Assembly: GCA_037447655.1 (NCBI GenBank)
Contig: JBBHKE010002273.1
Coordinates: 172,815 to 236,814 of the forward strand
Source: Zygnema cylindricum
Taxonomy: Eukaryota > Streptophyta > Zygnematophyceae > Zygnematales > Zygnemataceae
Length of the DNA: 64,000 bases
Reading direction: 5' to 3'
Positions 11,471-55,223 of the stretch are shown here, piece by piece. The notes beneath the pieces are model-generated. The model was not told where the DNA came from. It worked only from the letters and a program-made list of their open reading frames with translations, and did not search any database. Made by a program: the position numbers and the translations under genes. Position 1 is the first letter of the stretch. Each line of letters starts with the position of its first letter.

Positions 11471-13518
11471 AGTGCCCTGCCGCTACCCAAGGAAAAATGT
11501 GCAGTTTTCGTTTAAAACTGGGAGCCACCAGTATTGGATAGGCCTTGTCCCCCGAGATGTCAACACTCACCCACGTCAGCATCAAAACTGTAAGTTTCTT
11601 TTGTTTTTTTTAACAGTTACTTCGTTTTTTTAACATTTTTTTTTTTTTCTTTTACAATCTACGATGCACTTTTTTCATTGACTTTGTAGTTTTTTTTTTT
11701 TTCGTCTGTTCTAAACTGATAATGTTTTTGATTTATCACACATTTGTGACACTGCATCATGCGACATTGAAAGTTCCTGTCATGAACAGTTTTATTATTT
11801 TATTAATTAGTCACTTATATTTATTGCTTATGTACTTGTTAAATCATTTGTTCTATCTGATTTGTCTATCTGTTTTAATTATGTATTTAGTTTGTATATT
11901 TTTCTTTACACTAAGCAGTAGGTGGGTTATTTTACATTTTATGTATTTTTTTTCCCGGAAGCGATTAATCATACTTCCTTAACAATTTCTGTTTTTTCTT
12001 TTAATTTTTCAGTCAAATTCCGATGTTTTCCAACCGATGGTCCACAGTAATTGGGGTGTGCCATTTCAAATTCAATCGACAGGAGAACCGTTCAACGGTC
12101 CTTACACTATCTCATTGGAGAATAAAAATACAAGTGAGTACGATTTTTCTATCTTTTCATTTAATTTCTATAGATAAATGCGAGAATATTTTTCTTTCAA
12201 AAAAAAAAAGGATAACATTTTTCTTAAAATGTATGTCTATAAATGTGCGGTAGTCGTTTGCCTTGACAAAACCAAAAACAAACAGTTCATTCCTACCGAC
12301 ACTGTTGAAAATCAATTAAAGAAATGTCTAGTTCCTTTGTAATTTGACCCCCTACTTTAAGTCCTACAAGCTACACTACAAATCTAGTACTTTTGGTTTA
12401 GCGTTCTGTACTTCTTAAGTGGTTTGTACATACCTCCTTCAGTGTAGATTATTCTTATCGTACAATAAGACTCTCCTTTGTGTCTTTTTAAAAAGAAACT
12501 CGTATGACAAACCTCTCCCTTGTTTTCTTTGTTTGTCGTTATCTCAATTGTCCCTGTGTATCTTTGGCCTTTTATTTTACTTTGGTCTCTCTTATTAATT
12601 TTTTCATATTAGTTATTTGGCCTTTTACGGCCTCTAATTCAATAGACGCTTCCCTTTTCATTTCTTTTCTTTTTCTATTATTCTTGCAAGTTAGAAATTC
12701 TTAGAAAAGCACGAAAAAATGGTAAAGAAAAATCTTCTATGACAACAGTAAATTTATCTGTTATGTTTTTCAAACATACCGATGACATTTTTATCGACAT
12801 TTTCAAGGCTATTTTATGTTTTCTAGTTTCAAAGAAAAGCACTTTTTTCTTAACAATCTTTAAGGTATAAGTTATATTTTTTTCAGCAATTCCGTAAATG
12901 TCCGTTGAATCTGTTTTCAATTTTTTGCTGTAGAAGTTGTGTTTATCCATATTCTAATGGAAACATGTTAGAAAAAACAACAGCGATAATTCTTTTATAA
13001 GTTAGCGTAATTCCGTCAAACAGAAATAAACAATAAAATAAAAAAGTTTATAAGTTCAATGTATTGATATTTTAACCAAATCCGTAATATAGTTTGTAAA
13101 AATAATCCGTTATATTTCTTTTTTCTTTGATTGTTTATTTTACAGGTGAAATGATCACATGTCCAAACAAACTACCAATGAATTTTAACCCTCAAATTAT
13201 ATACGATTGCGGAGCACAATTTCCAACGACAAACAAAAGCGATCCCCAAGACCCTCAAACTAGACCACCTCTAACAAAACTACCTCCAAAAACCCCATTT
13301 CCATACCTTCAACCTCTACCACCTCAACCTCTAAAATCCCAACCTCCAAGTCCCCAATTCCCAAAACCCCAACCTCCTCCAAAACCCCAACCTTCTCCAA
13401 AACCCCAACCTCCAAGTCCCCAATTCCCAAAACCCCAACTTTTAAAACCTCAATTTCCCAAACCACCGAATTTGAAAAAACCGCCTCGTCAATCAAATCC
13501 GCCAACAAGTCCTCCAAA

Positions 13519-13520
<2 letters not shown>

Positions 13521-13590
<70 letters not shown>
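13521..13590 (+). repeat. (CT)n microsatellite at the end of expansin 1 exon
   Basis: About 34 uninterrupted CT units begin immediately after the ACG|GTCTCT donor-like site that ends the proline-rich exon. More diverged CT/CCT sequence continues to about 13695. Confidence 0.9.
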
Positions 13591-13594
<4 letters not shown>

Positions 13595-14227
13595 CACACT
13601 CTCTCTCTCCTTTCCCCTACTCTCTCTCTCACTCTCTTTCTTACTCTCCTCCTTCCCCCCATCCTTCCCTCCCTCCCTTCCTTCCTCCAGTCATTTTCTC
13701 CTTTTTCTTGCATTGACATATAGCAGAAAAGTAAAATCTGGTTTTTTATTGCTTTGTAATAATTTCATCTACAGTTAATTTATTAATTTTTTTAATTTAT
13801 CAAAAGTAATTTACTAAAAAAGAAAATGTGTTCAGATATTTTAATTTGGTTAAAAAATTGTAAAATTGCTAAACCTTCTCTTTCCCCCAAAAAACCAACT
13901 CCTCAGAGAAATAGTGCAGTGTAAAATCAAAGAACAAATAAAAATGATAAAAAAATATTAAGAATAGGAGAAAAAAAAGCAAGAACGAAACCAGTCATCA
14001 CTTGATTATTGACAAGAATTTGAGTAAAATCAACATCAAAAAAAGAATGAATTTAACGGGAAAACAGAGAGTGTATTTGGAGTTGAACTACTTTTCTCAC
14101 TACTCTTTTTTTTTATCTTTGTCTTTGTTTTTTTTTTTTTTTTCTTGTTTCCTTCTATCATTTTTATTTTTTCCACTTTACCTTTTTTGATTTTCAGATG
14201 TGAAGCAAAATATACAAATAATTTTGA

Positions 14228-14266
14228 GAAGGAACTAGGACTTAGAAAAATCTGGTTGGTAGTCCT
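14228..14266 (+). repeat. Left piece of an old Copia LTR cut by a later insertion
   Basis: AGGACTTAGAAAAATCTGG matches the late part of the family LTRs (for example near 47071). With the GTCCT duplication counted once, it joins smoothly onto 19758-19994, showing that one LTR was split by the element between them. Confidence 0.75.
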
Positions 14267-28089: not shown

Positions 28090-28716
28090 ATGGAGCACTC
28101 TTTCTCTCTCATCGCCATGTGGCCTCTCGTAATGCTTCTCCTGTTGCCACGTGTCGAATCAGCTCCATTTTATGACAACAAGTGGAGGAATGCTACTGCC
28201 ACGTGGTACCCGGGGAGACCAGGAGAGGGAAATCCTGACGGTGAGAATTTGAGCCTTCAAAAGTGTGACATGGGTAGACGCATTTGACACTAGATTTGGT
28301 AGACAGTTTTGACATTTAGCTGCAAAATGTGTGACATTGGTAGAAAATTGAAAATCTAGTTGCATAATGTGTGACATTGGTAGACATATTAGACATTTTC
28401 CGCTAAAATGTGTGACATTGGTAGATGAACTTGAAAATTAGGATTATCTTCACATTTGCGAACGTTGATGGAAATCCAAATAGATTAATCGCTATTGAAT
28501 AATATAAGAAATCGGACACATTATTTAGTGTTTCATCACTTAGGATGTTTGATAAGATGTCCCCAATTGCCAAGAAAAAAAAATTAATAATAATAATAAA
28601 ATAAAAAATAAAAAATGGGAAAGATAAAAGAATGAATTATCAAAAAATACCTTTAAAATTTCTTCACTTTTACTTAAAAAGTGAAAAGAAAATAAAAGAA
28701 ACAGTCTGAGAGCACC

Positions 28717-28754
<38 letters not shown>

Positions 28755-29231
28755 TAAAAAAAAAAAAAAAAATAAAAAATGGGAAAGATAAAAGAATAAA
28801 TTAACAAAAAATACCTTTAAAATTTCTTCAATTTTAATTAAAAAGAGAAAAAAAAAAAAAAAAAACAGTCTGAAAACACCCAAAAAAAAAAAAAAAAAAA
28901 AAATAATAAAAATCAACAAAAAATGTCAAATCTGACATTTAAGATTTTGACATCCGAATTTCCCCATGTGGATAAAAAATTCGACAAATTGCGGAAAATT
29001 CGCATCATAGATGCCACTGACACGTGGGCACCAATGCATTCCGTACGGCCGATCTGACATTTGCCACGTGTAATCCTTTATTGGTGCCAGGTGGCGCCTG
29101 TGGATACGGCAATCTGAACGTATTGGCGCAGAGAAGGCTATCGACAGCTGTCAGTGAGGCCCTCTGGATGGGAGGAGAGGGATGTGGGGCGTGCTATAAG
29201 GTGAGGCATTCTATTTTCTTCTCTCTCTCTA

Positions 29232-29283
<52 letters not shown>

Positions 29284-30859
29284 AATTCGTGAAAATTATT
29301 GTGACAAGTTTCCCCTCTCTCTCTTCCTCTTCCTCTCCCTCTCCTTCTCCCGTTTTCTCTCCCTATTCCTCAATTCCCCTTTACCCTCCCCTCCTCCTCA
29401 CCCTCTCCCTCTCCCTCTCCCTCTCCTTCTCCCTCTATCTCTCCCTTTTCCCAGGTAAAGTGTATAAGCAACTCTCTCTGTCGCGTGAAACCGGTCACGA
29501 TCACGGTGACTGACGTGTGCCCCGGAGGAGGAGACCCTAATTGGTGTGGACCCGGAAAGGCCCATTTTGATATGACCTGGGAAGCTTTTGGAGCCATGGC
29601 TAGAAAAGGACAAGAAAACGTTCTTCCTAATGCGGGTTATATGGATCAACTTATTTTCAAAAGGTAACAAATGAATGGATCAAGAATGAATGAAACAAAT
29701 CAAGTAATTAATGCCTCTCTTTCTCCCCCTCCCCCTCCCTCTCCCTCTCCCTCCTCTCTCCCTCTCCCTCTCCCTCTCACTCCCCCTCTCACTCCCCCTC
29801 TCACTCCCCCTCTCACTCCCCCTCTCCCTCTCCCTCTCCCTCTCCCTCAATTAATGAGTTAGCTGATGAGAAAATTAATGGGTTAGGTCATGAGTTAGTT
29901 TATAAGTTAGATAATAAGTTAGTCAACTACACCGCGCATCGTTATTAGTGTTATTAACTCTAATTTGGGTTCTTAAAATCTTGATTTTTTCCCGCAATTA
30001 GTATACATGATTTTCGAAATTAAATTAGCAACGCTATTTATGGACGTGGACCATAATCTGCCACGTTTCTGGCACTAAATTAGAATCAATAACACTTTTT
30101 TTTTTTACGCTATTTAAACTTTGACACTAAAAACGATGCGCGGTGTACCTGACTAATGAATTAAGTAATGAATCAAAGGAAGAAATGGAAGAAATAATGG
30201 ATGACATATTAATGACTGACATGATGAGGAAATAATTTTGAATCCCAAGATGGGACTTGAAATTCGTTCATAAATGAACTTTAAATGAGCTAGAATTCAC
30301 AAATTCACCTTGAATGTAATTGAATTTGAGTAATTTCTAATTGATTTAATGATTTCATCGATTTTATTGATTTAATTGATTTTAATTGATATTAATTGGT
30401 ACACTTTTCTTTTTATTGAGCTTGAACTTGAACTAAAAATTGGGTTCAATGTTGGACGAAAGCTGAATGCAAATTGAGCTGAAATGGAAAACTTACCGAG
30501 TTTTTTCTTATTTTTTCTTGGTTTTTTGTCCTTAATTTGTTAATTTTTTCCCCGTATGTTTCTTTACTTGTTAACTTTTTGTTTTTGTTTTTTCTCGGAT
30601 GGAAACCTTGGGCTAAATGTAATTTTTTCACGTATTAAAAAAGGTGTTGAGCCCTAAAATGACACCATTTTTGTTTTCTCTTTGTTTTTCTCTTTTTTTA
30701 TTTTTTTTCTGGGCAGGACTCCATGTGTATATAAGAAAAAGAAAATCGCTTTTTCTTTCAAACCCGAATCAAATGATTGGTGGAAAAGTCTTCTTATCCG
30801 AAATGTTGGCGGTCCGGGAACTGTTACCGATGTTTTTATTAAGCCGGTAAGGAGAGAGA

Positions 30860-30923
<64 letters not shown>

Positions 30924-32196
30924 GGGTTTTGGAACCTGAGGAATTTGAAATTTTGAGGTTTTTAATTTTAAAAGTGTGGGTTAAGCAATAATTCTAATGA
31001 TTACTTTTTTTTGTTTGTTTTCTTTTCTTTTTATTTTAAATAGGCGGGATTTAGCGATTATATTCGAATGGAGCACGATTGGGGCGCAAACTATGTTATG
31101 CAGTCAAATGGACCGCGATTTTTGGGCCCCTTTTATGTCAAACTGGTCAATTCCATAACAAGTGAGTATTACTTTACTTACATTTTTGTTTATTTAGTTT
31201 GCTTGTTTGCTTGTTTGTTTGTTCGTTTGTTTTTTTTTTTTTTTTTGCGGTTTTTGGTTAAGCGATTTTGTTTGTTGGTAAAACTTTCCATGCCCATAAG
31301 AATTTACATAAATAGCAGCAATAATAAAAAAGAATAAATAAAATAAATATAAAGATAAATAAAGAAAGATTCAAATAAATAGAACTTCTCTTTTGTGACT
31401 TTTTGGATATTTTATTTACTTCTTTTTCTATTTTTCAATTGAGGAATTTGTAGAATACTTAACTAAAAAGAGTGAAAAAAAAAAAAAGTTTTACCTCTTA
31501 ATTTTACTTATCATATTTTTTTTTTTATTTTTTTTTTTTTTTTTTTTTTTCTTTTTTTTTTTTGACTTTTTTTTTTTTTTTTTTTTTTTTTAAACAGTGG
31601 AATCCGTAGAATGTCCTCGACCGATTCCGGAGGATTTTCAAAATGGAGTACTTTACAATTGTGGAGTCCAATGGCCTCTCCCTTCCCCCCCTCTCTCCAC
31701 CCCTCTTATGGAACTCGCACCACCTTCCTCCTCTTTAATCAACGAAGATGAAGCAAATGAGGACCAAATCATTGATCCCCTCTCTCTCTCGTCTTCCCTT
31801 ACCTCTTCTTCCCCTCCTTCTCCCTCTCTCAATTCCTCTCCTTCCATGGAACCCCGACCACCTTCCTCTTCTTTAAAAAACCAAAATGAAGCAAATGGAG
31901 ACCAAGTTACCTCTTTTTCCCTTCTCTCTTCTTCCCTTCCCTCTACTTCCCTCCTCTCTTCTTCTTCTACCTCTTCTTCCCTTCCCTCTTCTTCCTCTCC
32001 CTCTCCCTCCACTCCCTCTTTTTCTAGCGTCAAGGCTCCTTCCTTTTATCCGGAATCTTTGACCAATAAGAAAAGGTTTCGTGGAACGACTCCGGAAAAT
32101 TTTTTGGAAGATTTTCCTGAAAATTTTTCGAACATTTTTGATTTTTCCGATTTAAATGAAGAAACGGATGGAGACCCAATTGAAACCATAGGGTAA
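28090..32196 (+). CDS. Expansin 2: secreted expansin with Ser/Pro-rich C-terminal tail, six exons
   Basis: Exons 28090-28240, 29091-29200, 29455-29663, 30717-30846, 31044-31161 and 31598-32196 join in frame to 438 residues; all introns are GT-AG. Residues 1-25 are a signal peptide (cut after ESA). About 32-157 is the six-stranded barrel domain (ATATWYPG, GACGYGN, GCGACY, HFD at 124-126). About 158-240 is the second, cellulose-binding-like domain (TPCVYKKKKIAFSF, LLIRNVGGPG, DWGANYVMQ). A motif at 245-265 (CPRPIP...YNCGVQW) links to a long Ser/Pro tail with a repeated PPSSSL..EAN.DQ unit and an acidic end. The expected product is a secreted wall-loosening protein. The last codons ATA G|GTAATT could also act as a donor, in the phase used in expansin 3 before its CBM49-like exon; no such exon was found downstream. 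Confidence 0.88.
28260..28440 (+). repeat. Minisatellite in expansin 2 intron 1
   Basis: Imperfect repeats of a GTGTGACATTGGTAGAC-type unit occur four to five times. The intron then becomes A-rich (28560-28920), with a roughly 190-base segment repeated twice. Confidence 0.65.
29221..29460 (+). repeat. (CT)n and CTCCCT tracts in expansin 2 intron 2
   Basis: A pure CT microsatellite (29231-29281) is followed by CCT-rich sequence up to the splice acceptor at 29454. Confidence 0.85.
29715..29850 (+). repeat. CTCCCT/CACTCCCC repeats in expansin 2 intron 3
   Basis: Hexamer repeats of the CTCCCT type enclose four copies of a TCACTCCCCC-type unit. Confidence 0.8.
29930..30145. mobile_element. TA-flanked MITE, short type (216 bases), in expansin 2 intron 3
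   Basis: CACCGCGCATCGTTATTAGTG at the left and its near-perfect inverse at the right are flanked by TA (29928-29929, 30146-30147). The element is exactly as long as the relative at 63626-63841. It carries no coding sequence and lies fully within the intron. Confidence 0.85.
30850..30920 (+). repeat. (AG)n microsatellite in expansin 2 intron 4
   Basis: About 30 AG units start right after the donor at 30847. Confidence 0.9.
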
Positions 32197-37862: not shown

Positions 37863-38155
37863 TCAAGATTGGCTCACAATAAAAAATGTGGCTTTTCCTC
37901 CCAAATTAAAATATCCGAATTCCGAAGAAGTTCCACTTTTAAACGGAAAAACGTAATCGTTTAAACTAAATAAACCGCCGTTTAAATATTTAAGACTATA
38001 TGTTCCCGTCGGTTGAAATTTTTCTGCTTTAAAAACAATCGAATAAAGTGGTTTAGAACCGATATTTGTAAATTTTACACTATAATAAAAAACCGTATTT
38101 CCATTTCCATCCGGCCAAGTACTAATTAGGGTTTGAGAAATCGTCACGGTCACCC
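37863..38155 (-). other. CBM49-like exon of expansin 3
   Basis: This exon encodes 97 residues from an AG|GGGTGACC acceptor to a TGA stop. The pattern (VTISQTLISTWPDG, FYYSVKFTNIGSKPL, GTYSLKYLNGGLFSL, YVFPF, SSEFGYFN) follows the CBM49 layout: I.Q....SW near the start, a (T/K)(F/V)TN strand, a YGPLWGL-like turn and a final EF.Y strand. Confidence 0.72.
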
Positions 38156-41100
38156 CTAGGAAAAAGAGGGGGAGAGATGGAGAGGGAGAGGGAGAGGGAG
38201 AGGGAGAGAGAGAGGGAGAGAGAGAGAGGGAGAGAGAGAGGGAGAGAGAGAGAGCGAGAGGGAGAGAGAGGAGAGAGATAGGAGAGAGGGAGAGGAGAGA
38301 AAAGAGAGAGAGGGAGAAAGGAGCGAAAGTGAGAGAAAGTGTGAGTTTAAAATTTTTGAAAAACGTAGAAGAGTGAAACGCAGAAAAATCAAACAAAAAA
38401 ACAAAAGAAAGAGGTTAAAAAATAAATAAAAAAAAGAGTAAATAACAACTGAAGAACCAAAAAAAATAAATCTATACTGACCTGAGGGAGGAGGGATTAG
38501 TGGTGTTGGCGGTGAGGATTTCGGAGGAGGAGGAGAAGACTTTGGGGGTGGAGGGAGGGATTTTGGAGGAGGAGGAGGAGAGTTTCGGGGTGGAAGGAGG
38601 GATGTTGGAGGAGGAGGAGAGCTTGGGGGTGGAGGGAGGGATTTTGGAGGAGAAGAGTTTGGAGGTGGAGGTAGTGAAGAAGGTGGTGGAGGAGAGAGGG
38701 GTGGAGATAGTAAAGGAGGTGGAGAAGTAACTGGGCGGGAAGTAGGAGGGAAAGTAAAGGGGGAGAGGGAGGAGAGGAAATTGGAGAAGGGCAACGGAGA
38801 GGAAGGGGGAGAAGAGGTAACTGGAAGGGGAGGAGGAAGAGAAGTAACACGAGGGGGAGAAGGAGGAGAGGTTACTGTGGAGGGAGAAATTGGAGGGGGG
38901 AAGTTGGGAGATGGAGTTATTGGGGGTATACTTGGTGGGCTGATGGGAGGGAGAGAGTTAGGAGATGGGATTTGGGGGGGTAGAGGTAGAGGAGGAGATG
39001 ACTGAGTCGGAGGAGGAGAAGGAGAGGGAGGAGGAGGAGGAAGAGAAGGTGAAGATATCGGAGGTGTAAATGTTAGAGGTGGAGATTTTGGAGGTGGGAA
39101 TTTTGGGGGTAGAGGTAAGGGAGGCGACAATTGAGGAGGAGGAGGTAGAGGAGACGTTGGAGGTGGGTTTTTGGGAAGAAGAGGGGGAGGAGGAGGAGAA
39201 GGGGAGGGATTCATGGCTCCTGGAGAAAATTGGGCTCCACAATCGAAGGAATTCTCAGCCGCAAATGTTGCGGGAATTGTCTTGGAACATGTTAATACTT
39301 CAACTATAAAAAACCATATTAGTGATTTTGACATTTAAGTAACATTGAGTGAGATTAAGTGACATTTAGTGAAATTATGTGGGATTAAGTTACATAAAGT
39401 AACATTTAGTAAGATTTCGTGACACTAAGTGTCAAATATACTATGTTTAAGTGCCATTGAGTGGCGATTTAAGGACATTAAATGAGATTAAATGGCATCA
39501 CGTGGTTATTTAGTTGATGTTAAATGACATATAGTGACATTAAGTGACATGCGATTAAGTGATAGTTGAGTTGTAATTCAAGTGACATTAAGTAATATTT
39601 TGTGACTTTTACCGAGGTGCGATTAACGACATTAAGTGACCATTTACGAGGCAATTTCCGTGAGGTTAAGTGAAATTAAGTCACATTTTTGCGGTATTAT
39701 TTGAAAGTAAGTGAGGTGAAATGATGATTAGAGTGACATTAAGTGACAGTTAGTAAAATTAAGTGACATTAAATTACATTAAGTGGTCAATTTAAGTGAT
39801 ACTAATGAGCATTAAGTGGAAAGCAGTGACTTATAGAACTTAAAGTGAAATCAAATGACATTAAATAAACTGGTGATTTAAGTGTTATTAAGTAATACTA
39901 AGTGAAATTTTGTGACAGTAAGTGAGATTTAGTGAGGTTAAGTAAGCATGTGTGATTTAGTCGGATAAAATGATATTTATTGACATTAACTGACATCTAT
40001 TGACATTTGATGACACTCATTGAGATTATTATATGTGACATGATATTTTGAGTGAAGTTTAGAAACACATTAAGTGACATTATGAGTGAAAATTTGGGTA
40101 AAATTTGAGCGGTTTAAAGGAACCTGCTTTGAATATGATTTTGGATGACATTGAACGTCATTTAAAAAAAAAAAATATTATATCGTATCACATTGTTAAT
40201 GGACATTATGGGAGGCAATTTTGATATCGCGTTTGACACTTTGAGTTAGTCTAATCACAACACCATCCACCCGCTTTAATTTTTTTTTTTTTTTTTTTTT
40301 CTGTCCACAACATTGCAGATGACATTTCCGGTAAGTAAAATTTGTGAGATTTCAGAATGAAAAATTGTGACATTTTAAGATGAAAAATTGTACCAAAAAA
40401 GTTGTGAAAACTTTAAAGTAGAAAACTGTGACATTTAAAAAGTGAAAGGTGTAAAATTAAAAATTTAGACACTGTGTCTTGTAAAACGTTAAATCATAAC
40501 ATTTTAAACTAAAAATTGTGGAATTTTCAGCTAGAATTTGTAACATTTTGAACGAGGAATTGCGACATTTTATAACAGCAAAATGTGACATTTTAAATTA
40601 AGACAACATTTAAAAAAAAAATGCGACATTTTAAACTAAAAACTGTAAAAAACTGTAAAATCTTACGTATTTCTTACTAGTAGAACTTACCGTGAGTCGA
40701 ACAGTGAAAGGTCCAACCATCGGTGTTGGACTATTTAAGACAAAAGAACCTCCCCAATCCTTTCTTAAAGTCACAAATGTTCCCGAATTCGCCTAAAAAA
40801 AGAAAGAAGGATAAGAGGAAAAAAAAAACATTGGCGCCGTAATCAAGTAATAAACAAAAAGAGAATATAACGTCGTAGATTTCCCCGACTAAGCCAAAAA
40901 GAAGAAATTAAGTAAAAGAAAAAAATTGGCACCGTAGTTAAGTAACAATTAACAAGAGATATAAAAAACATAGTCAAGAAAATAATTTAAGACTTCAAAA
41001 AAAAAAAAAATGTCTCTATGTCAAAAATAACTGTGTTGAGAGAGTTGATGTCAAATTACTAACAGTTAATAAATGGTTGATAAATCAAGTTGAGGAATTT

Positions 41101-43047
41101 CGAAATTGAAATCACTATAATACATATGATGTTTGATTTTTTTGCAAAAAAAAAGAATTTTAAGATTTAGAATCGTTGTAAAGAAAGAAATAATAAGATG
41201 ACCTTTGTACGATCGAGGTTTGAGTTTCTAGAGAAAAGCAACTCAAATTTTAGTTAAAAGAGAAGGGCATCTACCGAAAAAATCCTTCACTTCCTTCCCT
41301 TTCCTTCCTTCCCCTCCCTTTCCCTCTCTTCCCCTCCCTTACCCTCCTTCCCCTGAGTTACAACAAAATCAAATCGTAATCTTTTGGTTTTTCGGGGAAA
41401 AAAAAAGAAAAAACAGTCTTAAGTTTTGGAAAAATCTTAATCTTACATTTGATACATATAATACACAGGTAGAGAGGAAGAGAAGGAGCGAGAGAGGGAG
41501 AGAGAGAGGGAGAGAGTGAGGGAGAGAGAGAGACAGAGGGAGAGAGAGAGAGGGAGAGGGAGGGAGATAGAGGGGAAGAGAGAGGGCGAGAAAGAGGGGA
41601 GAGAGAGGGGGAGGGGGAGAAAAAAGGAGAGAGAGAGAGAGAGGGAGAGGAAGAGGGAGAAAGAGAGAGAGAGAGACGGGGGGGGGTGGTGTGAGAGAGG
41701 GAGAATACCTGTCTAAAGGCAACTGAGGAGACAATTCCCGGTCCAGCTCCCCCATATGGAACTATCCCGAGATACCACGGATTAAATTCCGATAAAACAC
41801 GAATAAATAAATTGTTGGAGGAGTACGGACATGGTACTCTGAAATTAAGTTACAAAAAAAAAAAAACAGTAAATCGATGTCAAATTACACAAAATAATTG
41901 GTCTTCCGATAGAGTTTTCTTGCAGTATAAGTGTCTTAAGCTGATAAAAACACGAGTTTAACTAAATTTCGGATTAAAAATAAAAAAAAAACCTGCAAAA
42001 TCAAGAAAAAACTGTAAAAAAAACGAGGAAAAACCGTAAAAAATCAAGGAAAAACCATTAAAAACGAGGAAAAGGCGTAAAAAACGAGGAAAAAACGTAA
42101 AAAAAACGAAATAAAAACCGTAAAAATACGAGGAAAAACCCTAAAATCAGAAAAAACGAAGAGTACTATACCGTTTGCAGGGAAATGTCGAGAACGCCGA
42201 CCAAGTTCCTCAGCTCGTTCTGTTTCAAAAAATACCAAAAAATACCAAAAAATACCAAAAATACCAAAAATACCAAAAAATACCAAAAAATACCAAAAAA
42301 TACCAAAAAAATACCAAAAAATACCAAAAAATACCAAAAAAATACCAGATAATACCAGAAAATACCAAAAAATATGAAACAAAAATGTACGGAATTACAT
42401 ACCGTGCGTACGAAATATCCAGAACGCCGACTAAGTTCCGGAGCTCGTTTTCTTTCCCCGGGAGCGCGAGAGCGCCAAAAGCCATTCCGCTCAAATCGAA
42501 ATGCGTTTTTCCGCCGCCGGAAAACTCGCCGGCGGGACAAAGGTCCGTAACCGACACCACAATTGGTGTGGAGGAACAGCGCGGGTTGTTTAGACACCGG
42601 ACCTGGAAAAAGACAAACGAGAAACGGGATACGAGGAAATTAAAGAGGAAAGAATAAAAACAAAGATCGGCGGTTTCGGTAAAGGTTTTTGTTTTTTTTA
42701 ATGTTTCAATGTAGATTGGATCTATATATGTAAGAAAAGGACAGAAAAGGGACAAAAAAGACAAAAAAGACAAAAAAAAGACAAAAAAAGACAAAAAAAG
42801 AAAAAAAAAAGAACAAAAAAAAGGACAAAAAAAGAACAAAACAAAAACAAAACAGAAAAAAATATAAAAAAATAAATAAAAGCAAAAGAGTCTTTTACTG
42901 ATTCTATTTATTATTTTTTACTAATTAATTTCCGTACCCGGTAACAAGCTCCACAACCTCCCCCGTTTTGGAAAATAGGGGAACTCCCGGCCGCGACAAA
43001 AACGTTGTACGGAGTAGAAGCCAAAGGACCGAATCCGCACGCTCCGG
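37863..43047 (-). CDS. Expansin 3: expansin + extensin-like linker + CBM49-like module (first exon not found)
   Basis: Minus-strand exons in order are 43047-42938, 42602-42403, 41838-41709, 40792-40678, 39303-38482 and 38155-37863. They join in frame to 556 residues (exon 1 missing). Residues 1-104: barrel domain (GCGACY, VTDLCPAGE, HFDLSGMAFGALA; HFD intact). 105-186: second expansin domain (VPCPYSSNN, YLGIVPYGGAGPG, DWGGSFVLNSP). Then TCSKTIPATF...FDCGAQF. About 215-459: proline-rich linker with SPPPP motifs, like extensins. 460-556: module starting VTISQTLISTWPDG, resembling CBM49, known from plant GH9C cellulases as a cellulose binder. All introns are GT-AG with phases as in expansin 2. 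Expected role: wall-loosening protein held on cellulose. Exon 1 may lie beyond the Copia insertion upstream. Confidence 0.85.
38160..38345. repeat. GA-rich tract in expansin 3 last intron
   Basis: GAGAGGGAGA-type purine repeats (CT-rich on the sense strand) run up to the splice acceptor of the CBM49-like exon. Confidence 0.85.
39320..40110. repeat. Minisatellite of an AAGTGACATT-type unit in expansin 3 intron
   Basis: Dozens of imperfect copies of AAGTGACATT, with TTAGTGA and GAGTGA variants, fill most of the intron between exons 40792-40678 and 39303-38482. Confidence 0.8.
41465..41700. repeat. GA-rich tract in expansin 3 intron
   Basis: GAGAGAGGGAG-type repeats lie next to the splice donor of exon 41838-41709. 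Confidence 0.85.
42172..42219 (-). other. 48-base duplicate of the end of expansin 3 exon 42602-42403
   Basis: On the minus strand the sequence encodes NELRNLVGVLDISLQT. It mirrors the end of the preceding exon (NELRNLVGVLDISYA) with several silent-type differences. An AAACAG acceptor precedes it and a G|GTATAG donor follows. At 48 bases it could be skipped or included without changing frame. Whether it is spliced in cannot be judged from sequence. Confidence 0.6.
42228..42375. repeat. Tandem ATACCAAAAA repeats in expansin 3 intron
   Basis: About 14 copies of a 10-11-base unit lie between the exon and its 48-base duplicate. Confidence 0.9.
42735..42850. repeat. (GACAAAAAA)n repeat in expansin 3 intron
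   Basis: Roughly ten units of GACAAAAAA with length variation. Confidence 0.85.
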
Positions 43048-43551: not shown

Positions 43552-44135
43552 TGTTGAGATTCTGAAGAAGTGGCCATAGGATCGATCAATTACAAGACAG
43601 GGAGCTAAGGAAAACAATTCTCTATATGAGAAAGCAAGGCTTAAGGAAAACAATTCTCTATATGAGAAAGCAAGGCTTAATTACTGAACAAGAAAAGAAG
43701 ATAGATTAATTCCACGACAAAATAAGCACTCAGTGCAAAACTAGCAGCAGGAAAAAATTGGAGAGAATCATTCGATTGATGATTAATTTTCAATGTCCAG
43801 CATGAGTACATTTTGTATGTGTAGGTGACGTAGGTCCTACGCTACTTGTGTTCCACGTAAAGAAAATACAATCTTAACTTGTGACCTACGTAATCGAATC
43901 AATGGTCACAATTCGCTACATGACACATACTCAAAATCCGCGACAACTTGACTTGCCGTACGGAACAAGTCAATGACCAATTTTTGACGTCTACGCAAAT
44001 ATAACTTGACGTCTACACAAATGTACCTTCACGTTTACTCAACTGTACCGAACCATACCGGACCTACTTGACTTCTCGCTCACGTAACAACTTTGATTTT
44101 TGTCCTTATTAGAAAATGGACACAGAATTTTAACA
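43552..44135 (-). repeat. 3' LTR of the minus-strand Copia
   Basis: It matches the right-hand LTR along its length, and has a 38-base tandem duplication (around 43610-43680, 'attctctatatgagaaagca') absent from the other LTR. Confidence 0.85.
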
Positions 44136-44162
44136 CCCCCTCTCTGGGTCATTTTCTGCATA

Positions 44163-45693
44163 CTATTGATTGTCCACACTAAATAAGCCCAACTCCTGTG
44201 AGCTGATTACAAACAACAATTTATCTCGAGGAACTCCTTTAGTCGAGTGATCTGCTGCTTGTTGAGCTGAACTAACAAACTCAAACTTTAAAAGTTTCTT
44301 TTCAACTTGTTCTCTCACGAAATGTGTCTGAATGTCTATATGTTTTGTCCTTGCATGGTAAACTGGATTTTTCATCAAAGCAATGCTACTTTGATTATCT
44401 ATAAAAATCAAAGTCTCCTCTATGGGTTCAAACCCTATCTCAGAATAAAAGTTGCGAAGCCAAATACCTTCCTTTGCTCCTTGAGTAGCCGCCATGTATT
44501 CTGCCTCTGTGCTTGATAATGCCACAGAAGATTGACGTTTTGAAATCCCTCCTATATAGGTCCTCCTGAACACGTAAAAATCCAGCCGGTAGTGCTCCTC
44601 CTTCTGTCGAGGTCGCCTCCCCAATCCGCATCAACATAGCCGGAAAAATCAATGTCTCCGGTGTTCTTCAAAAATTGTAGGCCGTAATTTATAGTCCCTT
44701 TCACATAACGTAAAATACGTTTAACAGCATACCAATGCTCTAGACCTGGGTTCTGCATGAATTGACTAACCGAGCCTACAGCTGCACCTAAATCAGGGCG
44801 TGTGCCAACCATTAAGTACATCAAGCTACCCACTGCCTCTTTGTAAGGGACTTGCCTCATCTGTTCTTTCTCAAACTCTGACTTAGGACCCATTTCCTTT
44901 GTAAGCTTTTGACTCGGGTCTAAAGGCGTTGATACGGGAATACAATCTTCCATACCAAAGCGTTTTAAAACTTCTCCTGCATATTTCTGTTGATTCATGG
45001 AGACTGTATAAACATCGTTTTTGATTTCTATACCAAGAAGGTAACTTAACTCTCCAAGGTCAGTCGTCTCAAATTTGTTGTTCAAGAACCGTTTGACCTT
45101 TTCAATCTCGGCTGACAGATAACCAAACACACTCATGTCATCGACATAAACTGAGACAATCACTAAGCTATTGTCTTCTCCAATAGTGTAAACTGCTCTA
45201 TCTGTGTGACATCTCTGAAGCCTTTTTTTTTCATTTCAGTGTCAAGTTTAATGTTCCAACACCTAGGATTTTGTTTTAGACCATATATAGATTTGTGGAG
45301 TTTACACACCATGTGTACTTTTCTTGGTTCTATCATGCCCTCTGGTTGTTCCATGTAGACTTCTTCCTCTAAATCCCCATTAAGAAATGTAGTTTTGATA
45401 TCTAGTTGATGCATTTGCATTCCCTCTGCTGCCCCTAAGGCTATTAAACTTCTGAGACTATTAAACTTCAATACTGGTGAGAAAGTCTCAGTATAATCAA
45501 CCCCCTCAACTTGTGAATACCCCTTAGCTACCAACCTCGCTTTATATCTTTCCACTGATCCATCTGATTTCCTCTTAATCTTAAAGACCCATTTACACCC
45601 TACAATGTTTTTCTCTTCAGGGCGTTCTACTAAGGTCCAAGTTTTGTTTTTGATCAGTGATTCATATTCTAATTCTATTGCCTTTTTCTTCAT
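44163..45693 (-). pseudogene. Copia reverse transcriptase and RNase H, three frames
   Basis: Minus-strand frame 45693-45163 holds the first half of reverse transcriptase (GCKWVFKIKRKSDGSVERYK, QLDIKTTFLNGDLEEEVYME, YGLKQNPRCWN). 45163-44552 holds the catalytic YVDD motif (VYVDDMSVFG), the LGIEI block and the start of RNase H (DADWGGDLDRRRSTTGW). 44624-44163 holds the rest of RNase H (SSTEAEYMA, DNQSSIALM, HARTKHIDI, ending VPRDKL). Frame changes at about 45163 and 44600 break it. Its sequence belongs to a different Copia lineage from the plus-strand elements. Confidence 0.88.
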
Positions 45694-45809
45694 GTACAGT
45701 CCTTAATTTATCCCACATAGCCTTAGGTTTTTCTAACTCAACTATATGTAAAAGTTGACTACCATTAAATTTCTGGATGTCTGTAATTTTACCTAAAGCT
45801 CCGATACCA
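45694..45809 (-). pseudogene. Primer site and gag remnant of the minus-strand Copia
   Basis: On the minus strand, TGGTATCGGAGC (initiator tRNA-Met 3'-end type) follows the LTR. A short gag start (ITDIQKFNGSQ) is fused to an internal gag block (AMWDKLRTVHEEK), and this runs straight into reverse transcriptase. Confidence 0.65.
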
Positions 45810-46303
45810 TGTTGAGATTCTGAAAAAGAGGCCATAGGATCGATAAATTACAAGACAGGAAGCTAAGGAAAACAATTCTCTATATGAGAAAGCAAGGCTT
45901 AATTACTGAACAAGAAGAAGAGATTAATTCCACGACAAAATAAGCACTCATTGCAAAACTAGCTGCAGGGAAAATTGGAGAGAATCATTCGATTGATGAT
46001 TAATTTTCAATGTCCAGCATGAGTACATTTTGTATGTGTAGGTGACGTAGGTCCTACGCTACTTGTGTTCCACGTAAAGAAAGTACAATCTTAACTTGTG
46101 ACCTACGTAATAGAATCAATGGTCACAATTCGCTATGCGACACATACTCAAAATCTGCGACAATTTGTACTTGCCGAACAATAGATGTAAACAATTACGT
46201 TTCGCTTAACTTGACGTCTACGCAAAGTATGCTTGACGTCTACACAAATTTTGACGTCTACTCAACCGTACATGAACCTAACAGGACTTCGGTTGACTTC
46301 TTT
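45810..46303 (-). repeat. 5' LTR of the minus-strand Copia, first part
   Basis: It begins TGTTGAGATTCTG like 43552 and is cut at 46303 by the young plus-strand Copia. It resumes after the TCTTT duplication at 52716 and ends at 52780. Confidence 0.85.
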
Positions 46304-47336
46304 TGTTGAAATCTATAGATTTCTATAGTATTTTCTAGGTTGAAATATGTTTTAATATAAGGAAAAAGGACGGACAGCCTGCCTCCACCTCGCTCTCTAG
46401 CTCCCATACTTGTTGTAGTCACTGAAGGTAAGAGAGAGAGGTTGATCCATGGCTGCCTTTAGTTCAACAGACAGCTATTTTTAGTAGGTTACTAAAAATA
46501 TACTTGACGGACGAGAGATTTGATCCCGGTACCTACGGTTCGTCAAGTCGACCGGTAGCGGTCAGCTTTATCCTAATAGACTAGGACCAATGCTAAGTGC
46601 TATGGTATGTGATAGATATATATTTAGTTAGGAAGAATTAAATCCATTTAACTAGAACTGTGTACGACGCACATAGATTCAGTTTTATATAGTACGTCGT
46701 ACGACGCTAATTCAAAACGGATACCGCGCATTTTATTTCGACATCGGAACAAATATCGCGCAAGTATTTATTACGGCTAAGATTGCGTTTCGCATAAAAT
46801 CCAACGGCGCACATCATCACCGAAATCCCGGAGTGGTCACTTTGGCGTTTTGTGACGTGGCATAATCTGGAGACACGTGGAGAGATGACATTCGGTCATA
46901 GGAATTCCGAGGAACGTACGGACGAGTGAAAAGCGGACACGCGTCCACTTAATAGCCTTGTCGTACATAGGCCGTACAAAAGGTACATCGGCAGTAGTAC
47001 TTTTGTGTACGATACAGTAATCTGATTGGTCCGTACTTCAGTAGATAGGAGTTATTAGAGAGAATCAGGACTTAGAAAATTTTGGTAGGTGGTCACCTCT
47101 CCCTTTGAGAGTTTGTACAAATTGGCATTTTTACTGCCTCATAACTAATCGCCTGGTTGGCCTTTTTCAGTGATTCTTTTTTCTACGGACTCAGGGGAGT
47201 CCAGGCTACACAGGGGTGCAGTCAAATTGTCAGTTTGCCTTCTTGGGCAGTAGTGGTTGTGGCTTGAAGTGGGTTAGTTAAATACTATCTAGAGGCTTCC
47301 TGTATTCTGTAGTCCAATGGAGGACACAGAATTGCA
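46304..47336 (+). repeat. 5' LTR of the young Copia, containing the gag start
   Basis: It begins TGTTGAAATC and ends ATGGAGGACACAGAATTGCA. The gag ATG at 47317 is the 20th base from the LTR end. The 3' LTR carries the same ATG, which there leads nowhere. Confidence 0.95.
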
Positions 47337-48599
47337 GGTTATGGGCCCACCCTCTAGGGTGCCCACCTTCAATGGATCTGGGTTCATCTATTGGGAAGCC
47401 ATGATGATGGGAGCTTTGTGTGAAAAACGATACTGGGGTATCGTCAGTGGACAAGTGAAACGTCCACCTTCGCGAACTCCACCAGGATTTGGGGGAGTAA
47501 GGTTTTCTGCAACAACGGCTGCCTCAGCGAAGGAGGCAGATGATGGGGACAGTAGTGTGTCCGAAAAGGAGAAAGGGAAGGAGACACCCCTCACTCCTAT
47601 TGCCACAGTATCGGGAGCGGCGACCGTGAAGACCGTGGAGAACGATACTCAAATGTGGGAGGATGTAAACATGGCTGCAAAGAACTTCATTCTAAGGCAC
47701 CTCACTCAAGGTTTGGCCACTCCTCATCTTCACATTTACAAGGCCGAGGAGTTGTGGGAGAGTGTGGTGGAGATTTATAGAGCTGGAACTATTCAGGAGC
47801 TCCAGTTGGCTGAGCAAAAGCTATTGAGTTACACTTACAAAGGAGGAAAGATGTTAGATTACTGTAAGGATCTTTTTTGTTTGTATATGGAAATGGAAAG
47901 TGCCGGGTGGACAGGTACAATGAAAATGAAAGTTAACACCCATATCATGAAATTACCAGATGAGTTCGAAAACATAGTGTACCGAGTACGAGAATGCCTG
48001 ATAGTTCATGGAAATGGATTACAGTAGTCAGGATGATACTTGTGCAGGAAAACACAATGAAGATTAGGAGAGGAGGAAAGAGCATTCAAGCTCTAGCAAC
48101 AGGAGGGGACCGATGGGGGAAGGACCCGAAGATACCTTATAGAGGGGAAAGAGATAATTCTGGGGGACAGAGGCCCCCAAAGGGTCTTTGTCATTATTGC
48201 AAAAAGTCGGGACACTTTATTGCAGATTGTGTCAAGCTATCGGAGCTGAGGCTCGAAGAAAACCCTGGAGGGGGTTCTTCCGGAGGGAAGAAAAAGGCAC
48301 TTGTGGTTACAAAAGTGTCAGGAGAAACCGAGGATGAGTCATCTGAGGAGGATGGGGAGCTTCTTCTTGACGAGAATCTGGAGGAGAATGAGATCCTTCG
48401 GAGGCAGAAGTGTGCCCTTGGAGCAATTCGGGAAGCTCCACAGGAACAATGGATCATCGACTCAGGTGCATCCATGCATATGTGTCGTGATAAAGAACTC
48501 TTCACAAAGCTAAGAAAGATTCCTACTGTAGAGATAGAGTTTGGGGATGGGAGAGTGGTTACTACAAATCTAGTGGGATCAGTAGATCTGAAAGTCTAA
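47317..48599 (+). pseudogene. Copia gag-protease of the young element, one frame change
   Basis: Gag starts in the LTR (MEDTELQVMGPPSRVP) and runs with the YWEAMMMGALCEKRYWG block and the capsid region to about 48005, where one base is out of step; the reading continues in the frame 47994-48599. That second part has the CCHC knuckle CHYCKKSGHFIADC, an acidic stretch, and the protease motif WIIDSGASMHMC. A TAA at 48597-48599 then interrupts the protease-integrase junction. The zinc knuckle packages RNA and the protease would mature the polyprotein. Homologous gag pieces are at 15435 and 56177. Confidence 0.9.
47337..47351 (+). promoter_or_regulatory. Primer-binding site of half-tRNA-Met type, inside gag
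   Basis: GGTTATGGGCCCACC begins at the first base after the LTR. It is complementary to fifteen bases of the anticodon arm of plant initiator tRNA-Met and encodes the end of LQVMGPP in gag. Confidence 0.87.
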
Positions 48600-49343
48600 G
48601 TGGAGGGTAAGACTTCTATACTTACATTCTCAGATATACTTTACATTCCTCAGCTGAGTAAAAATCTTGTCTCTACGTCTGTGTTAGATGACAAAGAGTT
48701 TGATACCTTCCCTAGAAAGGGAGTCTTTACAGCTAAGTATGGGGATGAAGTTTACTTCAGAGCAAATAAGGATAGCCAAGGAATGTTTAGGCTTAACTTG
48801 AGTAATGAAAAGAAGAATGCTTACTATGTTGGTGTTCCTAAGGTGATGATTTGGCATAAGCGGTTGGGGCATGTACATTTTGATAGGTTAAGGGAAATGA
48901 AAAAACTTGGGGTAGTAGATGGCATTGAGTTTGGGGATAATGAAATGATGGATGATTGTAGTGGTTGTGCTCAAGGTAAGGCTCACAGACTTCCCTTTCC
49001 CAAAGCCGCCACATATAGAGGTGAGAAAGTATTAGATTTAGTCCACACAGATATTTGGGGGCCTGCAAAAGTACCTTCGGTTGGAGGAAAGAGGTTTATG
49101 ATGACAATAACTGATGACTGGTCTAGATACTCTAGAGTCTACTTTCTGAAAACAAAGTCTGAAGCATCAACTTACTTCAAAGAATATAAAGCTTGGAGTG
49201 AGAAGTTGCATGAAACCCCCATTAAAAGGATAAGGAGTGATAATGGGGGGGAATATACCTCTAACGAGTTTGAGGAATATTTGAGAGATGAGGGAGTGCA
49301 GCACCAGAAAACTGTACCATATAACCGGAACAAAATGGGGTAG
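48600..49343 (+). pseudogene. Copia integrase (N-terminal part) of the young element
   Basis: The frame continues directly after the stop at 48597 with the protease end and the integrase zinc finger (WHKRLGHVHF ... CSGCAQGKAHRLPF). It then has the catalytic core with first aspartate (VHTDIWGP) and second aspartate (IRSDNGGEYTS). The frame is lost at about 49324, just before the block that carries the catalytic glutamate, which continues in the next frame. Confidence 0.9.
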
Positions 49344-49351
49344 CTGAGAGG

Positions 49352-51664
49352 TTGAATCGAACACTAGGAGATAGTGCATGCAGTATGTTGGCAGACAAGA
49401 AAATAGGAAAGAGATTTTGGGCAGAAGCAATGAACTGTGCAAACTATATTAAAAATAGAGTCCTTACCTCAGCTGTAAAGGGAGTGACACCTTATGAGAG
49501 ATGGGTTGGAAGGAAACCAGATATCTCACACCTTAAAGTATTTGGTAGCCAAGTTTACAGTCTTGATACGGATAGGAAAAACTGGAAACTAGATGCTAAG
49601 GGAAAACCTGGATACTTTGTGGGATATGATGAGGATGTTAAGGGATATAGAGTCTATGACTTAGCAAAGAAAGATATCATTCTGGTCAAACACTTAGTTG
49701 TCATGGATGAAGGGAAGTCATTTGACCCCTTCAAATATACAAAAAGGATAAGGATCAGATTTGAGTCCGAAAATGAGGAGAACTCAGTCGTTCCCGAAAA
49801 AGACATGAGTGAAACTGTGATTACAGACTCAGGGGAGATCGAAGATATAAGAGACTCACCGGAAACCTCACATACTCCTATGGACTTCGAGGAGATGGAA
49901 GAAGCGGGACAAGATACGGTTTTTATGGACAGGGGAGCCGATGAGACAGTGAGAAGAAATCCAAGACTTCCATCCATTCCAGCTTCGGAGTTTGAGGGAG
50001 GAAGGAGGAGCAGCAAAAGGATACAGGAAAAACAAGCTGCCCATAAGGTAACTAAGCTATCTCACCCAGATGAGCCTCAGTCTTACTTAGAGGCAGTGAA
50101 TAGTCCAGAGAAAGAAAGATGGATTAGGGCCATAAATGATGAGATGGCTTCTATCATGGAAGCAAATACTTGGGAACTAGCGGATTGCCCTCCAGACAGA
50201 AAACCTATTGGGTGTAAATGGGTATTTAAACTAAAACTGAACCCAGATAATACAATTGAGAGGTATAAGGCTCGATTGGTAGCAAAGGGGTTCACCCAAA
50301 AAGAGGGGATTGACTATGAGGAGACCTTTGCTCCAGTTGTTCGGTTCCCATCAGTAAGGATTCTCCTCAGTCTGGCCGCAGCGGAAGACATGGAAATTCA
50401 CCAGATGGATATTAAGACTGCTTTTCTTAATGGTGAGTTAGAGGAAGAAATTTTTATGAGGCAACCCGAGGGGTTTGTGGAAGAAGGAGAAGAGAGCAAA
50501 GTGTGCAGGCTCATAAAGTCCTTATATGGACTGAAACAGGCTCCCCGACAGTGGAATAAGAAACTAGATGAGTTTCTCACCGATCTGGGATACATCCGGA
50601 TCAGCTCTGATCATTCTATCTATATGTTTGAAGATGAGAATGGTGTCATTTTTATTGCAATTTATGTGGATGATCTGCTTGTGTTAAGTAAGTCTTTAGA
50701 GAATATCAATAGGCTAAAGAAAGATCTTAGGGGCAGATTTGATATGAAGGATTTAGGGGAGGCAAAATATATTTTGGGGATCCAAATGGAAAGAGATAGG
50801 GGGAAGAAGATTATCAGACTTACTCAGAAAGAAGCAATAGGTAATATGCTTGAGAAATTCCAGATGGAAAATGCTAACAGTTGTACCACTCCCATGGACT
50901 TGAAAAAAGGAAGTGATGGGAGTGTAGAAGGAGGAGTGATGATCTTAGACGATCAGATGAGTCCAGAGGAAAGAGAATTCATGAAGTCTATCCCTTATAG
51001 ACAGGTCGTAGGAAGCTTAATCTATTTTATGAACTGTACCAGGCCGGACATAGCGGCGGCAGTTGGTGTACTCAGTAGGAGTCTTAATGATCCTAGGAAG
51101 AGGGATTGGGAGGCAGCCAAGAGAGTCATGAGATATCTGGTGGGAACTAGAGAGTTATGGTTGCATTTGGGAGGGGAGCACACTGACATCACTACTTGGA
51201 GTGATGCCAGTTATGGGGACGCACCTATGAGACGATGCACTTCTGGGTATGTGTTGTATGTTGGAGAAGGTGCTTGTTGTTGGAGCAGTAAGCAACAAAA
51301 GGTGGTTGCTCAGTCTACTATGGAGGCTGAGTATATGGCGTCTTGTTCTGCTGTGAAAGAACTAATGTGGGTGAAGTCATTATTGCAAGAACTGGGATAT
51401 ATGAAGGAGGGAGTGCATGAAATCTTTTGCGATAATCAAGCTGCAATCGCAATCGCAGCCAATCCAAAACATCATTTCAAAGCAAAACATATGGACATAA
51501 GATTAAGCTTCGTAAGAGAAAAAGTTGAAAACAAAATTTTAAATCTTGTGTATAGACCTGATGAAGAAATGGTGGCTGACATGATGACCAAACCTGTGCC
51601 CTCTCCTAAACTAAAATATTGTCGGGAAAAATGTGGGTTGAAAGAAAAATTAAAATTAGACTAG
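49352..51664 (+). CDS. Copia integrase C-terminus, reverse transcriptase and RNase H, 770 residues
   Basis: This long frame copies element RNA into DNA. Residues 1-110 are the integrase C-terminal region (MLADKKIGKRFWAEAMNCA, GVTPYERWVGRKPDISHLKV). About 110-250 is the acidic linker with PSIPASEFEGGRRSSKR. About 265-515 is reverse transcriptase (GCKWVFKLKLNPDNTIERYK, HQMDIKTAFLNGELEEEI, YGLKQAPRQWN, and the catalytic YVDDLLVLSK). About 600-770 is RNase H (WSDASYGDAPM, STMEAEYMA, CDNQAAIAIA, HHFKAKHMDI, VADMMTK). The recorded start is not a real one, since the reading enters from the integrase frame upstream. All catalytic residues of reverse transcriptase and RNase H are present. It ends 13 bases before the 3' LTR. 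Confidence 0.93.
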   Translation: MNRTLGDSACSMLADKKIGKRFWAEAMNCANYIKNRVLTSAVKGVTPYERWVGRKPDISHLKVFGSQVYSLDTDRKNWKLDAKGKPGYFVGYDEDVKGYRVYDLAKKDIILVKHLVVMDEGKSFDPFKYTKRIRIRFESENEENSVVPEKDMSETVITDSGEIEDIRDSPETSHTPMDFEEMEEAGQDTVFMDRGADETVRRNPRLPSIPASEFEGGRRSSKRIQEKQAAHKVTKLSHPDEPQSYLEAVNSPEKERWIRAINDEMASIMEANTWELADCPPDRKPIGCKWVFKLKLNPDNTIERYKARLVAKGFTQKEGIDYEETFAPVVRFPSVRILLSLAAAEDMEIHQMDIKTAFLNGELEEEIFMRQPEGFVEEGEESKVCRLIKSLYGLKQAPRQWNKKLDEFLTDLGYIRISSDHSIYMFEDENGVIFIAIYVDDLLVLSKSLENINRLKKDLRGRFDMKDLGEAKYILGIQMERDRGKKIIRLTQKEAIGNMLEKFQMENANSCTTPMDLKKGSDGSVEGGVMILDDQMSPEEREFMKSIPYRQVVGSLIYFMNCTRPDIAAAVGVLSRSLNDPRKRDWEAAKRVMRYLVGTRELWLHLGGEHTDITTWSDASYGDAPMRRCTSGYVLYVGEGACCWSSKQQKVVAQSTMEAEYMASCSAVKELMWVKSLLQELGYMKEGVHEIFCDNQAAIAIAANPKHHFKAKHMDIRLSFVREKVENKILNLVYRPDEEMVADMMTKPVPSPKLKYCREKCGLKEKLKLD

Positions 51665-51677
51665 AAAATAAGGGGAG

Positions 51678-52710
51678 TGTTGAAATCTATAGATTTCTAT
51701 AGTATTTTCTAGGTTGAAATATGTTTTAATATAAGGAAAAAGGACGGACAGCCTGCCTCCACCTCGCTCTCTAGCTCCCATACTTGTTGTAGTCACTGAA
51801 GGTAAGAGAGAGAGGTTGATCCATGGCTGCCTTTAGTTCAACAGACAGCTATTTTTAGTAGGTTACTAAAAATATACTTGACGGACGAGAGATTTGATCC
51901 CGGTACCTACGGTTCGTCAAGTCGACCGGTAGCGGTCAGCTTTATCCTAATAGACTAGGACCAATGCTAAGTGCTATGGTATGTGATAGATATATATTTA
52001 GTTAGGAAGAATTAAATCCATTTAACTAGAACTGTGTACGACGCACATAGATTCAGTTTTATATAGTACGTCGTACGACGCTAATTCAAAACGGATACCG
52101 CGCATTTTATTTCGACATCGGAACAAATATCGCGCAAGTATTTATTACGGCTAAGATTGCGTTTCGCATAAAATCCAACGGCGCACATCATCACCGAAAT
52201 CCCGGAGTGGTCACTTTGGCGTTTTGTGACGTGGCATAATCTGGAGACACGTGGAGAGATGACATTCGGTCATAGGAATTCCGAGGAACGTACGGACGAG
52301 TGAAAAGCGGACACGCGTCCACTTAATAGCCTTGTCGTACATAGGCCGTACAAAAGGTACATCGGCAGTAGTACTTTTGTGTACGATACAGTAATCTGAT
52401 TGGTCCGTACTTCAGTAGATAGGAGTTATTAGAGAGAATCAGGACTTAGAAAATTTTGGTAGGTGGTCACCTCTCCCTTTGAGAGTTTGTACAAATTGGC
52501 ATTTTTACTGCCTCATAACTAATCGCCTGGTTGGCCTTTTTCAGTGATTCTTTTTTCTACGGACTCAGGGGAGTCCAGGCTACACAGGGGTGCAGTCAAA
52601 TTGTCAGTTTGCCTTCTTGGGCAGTAGTGGTTGTGGCTTGAAGTGGGTTAGTTAAATACTATCTAGAGGCTTCCTGTATTCTGTAGTCCAATGGAGGACA
52701 CAGAATTGCA
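51678..52710 (+). repeat. 3' LTR of the young Copia
   Basis: Same length and, by eye, same sequence as 46304-47336. It is preceded by the purine tract AATAAGGGGAG. Confidence 0.95.
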
Positions 52711-55002: not shown

Positions 55003-55223
55003 GAAGCGTTTGCAGAATTGAAGCGCTTTAATAAAACTGAAGCGCTTTCATAAAACTGAAGCGCTTTCACAAAAATGAAGCGCTTTCACAAAACTGAAGC
55101 GCATTAAGAAAACTGAAGCCCTTTCACAAAACTGAAGCTCTTTCACAAAACTCAAATGCTTTAATAAAACTGATGCGCTTTAATAAAACCAAAGCACTTT
55201 AATTAAACTGAAGCACTATAATC
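55003..55223 (+). repeat. 19-bp satellite array, segment 1
   Basis: About eleven copies of the unit AATAAAACTGAAGCGCTTT with point changes. The array is cut at 55224 by a Copia insertion, TAATC being duplicated. Confidence 0.88.

Follow-up and report, generated by a model that had tools for sequence, protein, structure and literature searches.

A predicted expansin from Zygnema cylindricum with a proline-rich spacer and a C-terminal CBM49 module

The window, by which we mean the whole 64,000-nt stretch of Zygnema cylindricum DNA that was analyzed, contains three expansin genes (Exp1, Exp2, and Exp3) and two LTR elements, whose positions are given in Table 1. Exp3, the subject of this report, consists of six visible exons on the minus strand (43047-37863), which encode the expansin domains, a proline-rich spacer, and a CBM49. 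The outer ends that an earlier note on this DNA had given for the first and last visible exons (43047 and 37863) are exact to the base. The note had also proposed that the six exons join in frame with GT-AG borders, which holds provided that exon 4 ends at the donor 40678|gtaaga. A more obvious donor, 40691|gtaagt, was rejected because it brings in a stop as the fourth codon of exon 5, so exon 4 must end at 40678. The corrected donor, 13 bases downstream, restores the frame and defines the same phase-1 intron as in Exp1 and Exp2. The resulting model has 555 complete sense codons plus a split first codon, no internal stop, and GT-AG borders in all five introns. At 42225-42169, within intron 2 of Exp3, part of the preceding exon recurs in diverged form (KQNELRNLVGVLDISLQTV) between splice-like borders, which looks like a failed exon duplication.

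Table 1. Expansin genes, Exp3 exons, and LTR elements in the window
Feature	Coordinates	Strand	Description
Exp1	10478..14238	+	Expansin core and Pro tail; one non-GT donor; last mini-exon guessed
Exp2	28090..32196	+	Six exons, ATG to stop; signal-peptide-like start, both domains, Pro/Ser tail
Exp3 exon 6 (last)	37863..38155	-	CBM49 module, 97 residues, and stop codon
Exp3 last intron	38156..38481	-	Phase-1 GT-AG, gtcagt...tttttcctag; between spacer exon and CBM49 exon
Exp3 exon 5	38482..39303	-	End of domain 2 (Cys pair) and 248-residue Pro/Ser-rich spacer
Exp3 exon 4	40678..40792	-	Domain 2; corrected donor 40678|gtaaga
Exp3 exon 3	41709..41838	-	Expansin domain 2 begins here
Exp3 exon 2	42403..42602	-	Remainder of domain 1, THFDLSG motif; DPBB_1 match, residues 18-86
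Exp3 first visible exon	42938..43047	-	Start of expansin domain 1 (GACGFG...CGACYR)
Older, shortened copia-type LTR element	43552..46301	-	Directly upstream of visible Exp3 exons; right end abuts young element
Young Ty1/copia element, complete-looking	46304..52710	+	1033-bp LTRs, 100% identical; 5-bp target duplication TCTTT; RVT_2 E 1.4e-84

As for the expansin moiety, the Pfam searches agree with the claim that both domains are present. Domain 1, a GH45-like double-psi barrel, matches DPBB_1 at residues 18-86 with 56.5 bits (cut-off 28.8), and the CBM63-like domain 2 matches Expansin_C at residues 122-195 of the corrected protein with 30.5 bits (cut-off 24.6), up from 25.8 bits with the provisional junction. 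EXPB1_D1 scores 26.0 bits, below its cut-off of 27, the first 18 positions of that model corresponding to the missing exon. The HFD and CGAC motifs are kept (THFDLSG and GCGACYR). The best solved relatives of the Exp3 core are the beta-expansins Phl p 1 (1n10) and beta-expansin 1a (2hcz), with E values of 2.8e-34 and 6.8e-34; the alignment covers residues 2-202 of the 207-residue provisional core, with the HFDLSG stretch kept. Like Exp3, these plant proteins (EXPB) have domains 1 and 2, HFDLSG, and a CGACY-type motif, but their chains (241 and 245 residues) stop after domain 2, where Exp3 adds the spacer and the CBM49. We file Exp3 as an expansin, beta-type by nearest similarity only. No GH9 catalytic domain is found in the 555-residue protein, since Pfam to E 1 returns four families, none of them GH9.

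The C-terminal 97-residue module had been said to follow the CBM49 pattern, and the profile search places it in Pfam CBM49 and in no unrelated family. The last exon alone (38155-37863) scores 43.2 bits (E 4.8e-11, cut-off 23.4), with no family other than CBM49 to E 10. Within the whole protein, the match (E 2e-9, 38.0 bits) spans residues 462-541 and profile positions 1-78 of 80. The CBM49 lies at the C-terminus on a last exon of its own, which is also the arrangement in AtGH9C1, and we found no further copy like it elsewhere in the 64,000-nt window. A structure model of the exon is poor (pLDDT 53.7), and fold matches from it mean little. Three of the 19 aromatic residues in the module (W14, Y53, and Y68), picked by spacing alone and not from a CBM49 alignment, are 39 and 15 residues apart. 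In the accessible text of PMC11423589, the cellulose-contact aromatic triads of Luke-2 have spacings of 38/15 and 41/16. W14-Y53-Y68 is a possible counterpart of this CBM2/CBM49-type triad, in which only the first residue is Trp. The "two cellulose-contact points" proposed in the earlier note are putative, a weaker claim than the one it had made.

The same note had regarded the fusion as a gene structure rather than an assembly join. This reading is backed by the introns and the tail exon shared with the paralogs, by the donor of the spacer exon and the acceptor of the CBM49 exon both being phase 1, and by the absence of any N from the window, so the join looks like a gene structure. Read from stop to stop, the CBM49 frame starts at 38414 and has no Met before the module, which makes it unlikely that a separate gene begins in this exon. 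Exons 5 and 6 are joined by a predicted splice, and the CBM49 exon might lie outside the main product, either because the transcript ends in a retained intron after the spacer or because the exon belongs to a minor isoform. We regard this as very improbable. The exon 5 frame (39334-38159) is open through most of the last intron, the Exp1 and Exp2 models are devoid of CBM49, and the donor, GTCAGT, falls short of the strongest form when judged by the consensus. Nevertheless, the acceptor has a strong pyrimidine tract, the phase-1 ends match, and decay would be expected of a CBM49 frame that is not used. Retention of the intron would let frame 39334-38159 encode a strongly hydrophobic tail, probably an effect of T-rich sequence.

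Between the two moieties lies the spacer, which had been described as about 245 proline-rich residues with SPPPP motifs. We count 248 residues, with 118 Pro, 50 Ser, and no Tyr, and seven SP3+ motifs, five of which are SP4 or longer. Classical extensins cross-link through Tyr motifs (YXY and VYK). The SP3+ motifs justify the term "extensin-like," but since there is no Tyr, the spacer is not a cross-linking extensin. A polyproline-II helix rises by ~0.31 nm per residue, which gives the 248 residues a reach of at most ~75 nm. According to the part of PMC8012813 that is available, SP3+ motifs are broadly accepted as enough for Pro hydroxylation and arabinosylation, which has not been validated in extensin chimeras. 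The motifs for the "O-glycosylated spacer" of the earlier note are present, and glycosylation is presumable, a weaker statement than the one it had made.

The paralogs provide the context for this gene model. Exp1, Exp2, and Exp3 have intron positions and phases in common, and their cores are 43% (Exp1-Exp2), 36% (Exp2-Exp3), and 35% (Exp1-Exp3) identical. Towards the end of domain 2, two Cys that form a candidate extra disulphide occupy the same two alignment columns in all three and in P0006, a protein considered below, and are absent from 18 of 24 aligned cores (the row of P0004 is a misaligned tandem copy). The shared Cys columns and introns speak for one family. The Exp2 protein has a hydrophobic start and an ATWYP motif. 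Neither the Exp1 nor the Exp2 model has a CBM49 match in Pfam. Exp1 may be a decaying copy or bear a sequence error, because its intron 3 (11589-12012) has a displaced donor (tgtaagt), the donor at 11589 not being GT, because it reads HFDR where HFDL is expected, because Expansin_C is missing from the Pfam matches of its model up to E 1, and because its first exon was not found. At 13146-14238, Exp1 has a tail exon whose donor is phase 1, as in Exp3. A candidate last mini-exon would yield DVKQNIQIILRRN and a stop; a C-terminal module has perhaps been lost or replaced.

P0006 is a 401-residue protein encoded on a 1,918-base contig and is 69% identical to Exp2 across the whole searched region. 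It runs on into a similar tail, which ends in DEETEEGPIDPIG, compared with NEETDGDPIETIG in Exp2. Since the contig has one open frame in its 1,918 bases, whereas the introns of Exp2 measure 197-1053 bases, it is best read as a spliced mRNA, probably of a related species. P0006 covers core and tail and supports the exon model and the tail of the family; it bears on Exp2, not on the CBM49 exon of Exp3. In a tree of 24 expansin cores chosen from 125, with no alpha-expansins knowingly included, Exp1, Exp2, and P0006 group with a support of 100, while the group that also includes Exp3 has a support of 68 only. P0003 from Closterium sp. Yama58-4 groups with the long-branched P0004 (support 96), not with Exp3. 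The Cys columns and shared introns, taken with this Pro-tailed Closterium relative, hint at a zygnematophyte origin, a weak placement that the tree does not directly support.

We then consider homologues with the same domain order. A search with the Exp3 core among proteins of 303-966 residues returned 4 of 1447 candidates at E <= 1e-3, P0003 being the only algal one, and none of the four has a CBM49 domain. The CBM49 part matched none of 65 candidates at E <= 10. Both of these searches covered proteins of 303 residues or more. With the Exp2 core, 403 of 1277 candidates matched, and CBM49 occurs in none of 120 among the matches listed. All protein searches rely on shared 5-residue words, which distant fusions can escape. 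Among the matches listed, there is no Exp3 transcript and no relative of the same domain order. P0003 resembles Exp3 in its core (39% identity), its Pro/Ser/Gly/Asn-rich tail, and two Cys close to where domain 2 ends, the first of which is three columns later than in Exp1-3. Unlike Exp3, it does not match CBM49 at any E value up to 1, and the two are apart in the tree.

Whether Exp3 is an intact gene depends on its 5' region. The first visible exon has a phase-1 acceptor, the same as that of Exp2 intron 1. Because the position and phase of this intron agree with those in Exp2, a further 5' exon is expected upstream, which would encode the signal peptide and the N-terminal TWY motif. Neither motif nor profile searches of the preceding 21 kb (43,048-64,000) found it. 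The LTRs of the older element (43552-44076 and 45810-46301) are 82.3% identical in a gapped BLAST alignment and differ at 49 of 480 sites aligned by MAFFT, with 7 gaps (K2P 0.11). The adjoining element is very young, since its LTRs are identical and its target duplication is intact. Farther upstream, 54994-55222, 59388-59670, and 60456-61029 are related, internally repetitive stretches that are roughly 73-85% alike.

The Exp3 locus could therefore be a 5'-truncated gene or a recent pseudogene, in which retrotransposons have cut the body from its promoter and signal-peptide exon and from which no fusion protein is secreted today. We consider this rather unlikely. It would account for the first exon not being found by motif or profile in 43-64 kb and for the two LTR elements directly upstream, one of them very young, and Exp1 likewise has no first exon that we could find and has a non-GT donor. 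However, intron 1 exists in Exp2, so the missing exon may lie past the window, across an enlarged intron, and no lesion is visible in the 555 sense codons and five introns, which makes decay since the older insertion unlikely. We simulated neutral decay of the Exp3 coding sequence over the age of the older element (d ~0.055 per lineage, 3000 runs), with the divergence of the LTRs taken as a clock and equal rates assumed in exons. On average, 2.15 new stops appeared, and 10.9% of the runs were stop-free, indels and splice sites not being counted; ~12 indels would be expected, and the chance of intact splice dinucleotides is 32%. At a quarter of that divergence, 56% of the runs were stop-free. 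Since the frame is undamaged where simulated decay predicts stops and indels, Exp3 looks to have been maintained after the older insertion. The young element by itself could have silenced Exp3 tracelessly, since death from this insertion would not show as lesions.

Expansins loosen walls without hydrolysis. On balance, we lean slightly towards reading Exp3 as a secreted beta-type expansin to which a CBM49 has been added behind the proline-rich tail, making it a tethered, non-hydrolytic loosener. By comparison with its paralog Exp2, the protein would be secreted. The CBM49 would anchor it on cellulose, and the stiff, Hyp-rich, presumably O-arabinosylated spacer would act as a tether with a length of some tens of nanometres at most. 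Within the reach of this tether, the expansin head (the groove of domain 1 and the surface of domain 2) would slip into polymer junctions and loosen them without hydrolysis. The proline-rich tail would have existed first, and the CBM49 would then have been gained in the form of a new last exon, probably the one that encodes this module in a class C GH9 cellulase-type gene. The green lineage is known to have an exon suited to such a transfer, since a single last exon encodes the entire CBM49 of AtGH9C1, as it does in Exp3 (PMC3500288). The accessible portions of the same source report that the CBM49 of tomato SlCel9C1 binds crystalline cellulose and that the CBM49 of AtGH9C1 confines the enzyme to certain wall regions, its removal making wall binding diffuse instead of localized.

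A more specific proposal, possible but less likely than not, is that Exp3 is a bivalent expansin, in which the CBM49 clamps one cellulose surface and the head works on junctions at a distance set by the glycosylated spacer, whose length would then decide the site of loosening. If this is true, Exp3 would be, as far as searched, the first expansin of the plant lineage in which targeting is separate from loosening, and the CBM49 exon would have been shuffled between cellulases and expansins. Alternatively, the protein might be a structural tether or spacer and not a loosener, with cellulose binders at both ends of a rod linking or spacing microfibrils. This we find improbable. It is consistent with the architecture only (expansin core, 248-residue proline-rich rod, and CBM49) and with expansin domain 2 itself being CBM63-like, as stated in the available part of PMC11547041, but the HFD motif is kept in domain 1, and extensin-type cross-links would need Tyr, which the spacer does not contain.

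The favored reading, a tethered loosener, brings together parts that are known separately. The class C GH9 cellulases SlCel9C1 and AtGH9C1 have, like Exp3, a C-terminal CBM49 after a linker (PMC3500288), but Exp3 has no GH9 match and its linker is long and proline-rich, whereas that of AtGH9C1 is called short (PMC3500288). The nematode proteins Gr-EXP1 and HaEXPB2 also combine an expansin with an additional cellulose-binding module, which belongs to another family, CBM2, and is N-terminal in Gr-EXP1; no extensin-like spacer is mentioned in the available portions (PMC5093861). MdEXP2 from Micrasterias carries a long extension at its C-terminus, which is described as typical of EXLA (PMC3191482). 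Chimeric extensins (LRX, PERK, and algal long chimeric extensins) join an SP3+ segment to another domain as Exp3 does (PMC8012813 and PMC10762512), while Exp3 has no Tyr cross-link motif and the accessible text of these papers names no sub-class with an expansin or CBM49 partner. A CBM49 or CBM49-related module also occurs in Dictyostelium CBM49 proteins and Acanthamoeba Luke lectins, and Luke-2 binds cellulose via sets of three aromatics (PMC12821622 and PMC11423589). In contrast to Exp3, no expansin-CBM49 fusion is named for these organisms in the excerpts, expl7 being listed with DPBB_1 only (PMC9117722).

The earlier note knew of no described plant expansin with a CBM49, and we have found none either, as far as the literature and protein databases searched. 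The literature covered, excerpts of mostly non-subscription papers that included PMC4755413, PMC3500288, PMC12821622, PMC4981690, PMC11423589, and PMC9117722, contained no expansin-CBM49 protein. The combination is therefore new as far as searched. How expansins locate the rare cellulose junctions that bear load, and how they act on them, could be tested directly with a natural expansin such as Exp3, whose second cellulose anchor would sit on a long spacer and be detachable. Exp3 would also be a case in which cellulases and expansins of algae near land plants have exchanged a CBM49 exon. Such C-terminal modules could be overlooked by surveys that select DPBB and CBM63 domains, as in the accessible part of PMC11547041, and by comparisons that first trim C-terminal extensions, as in that of PMC3191482.
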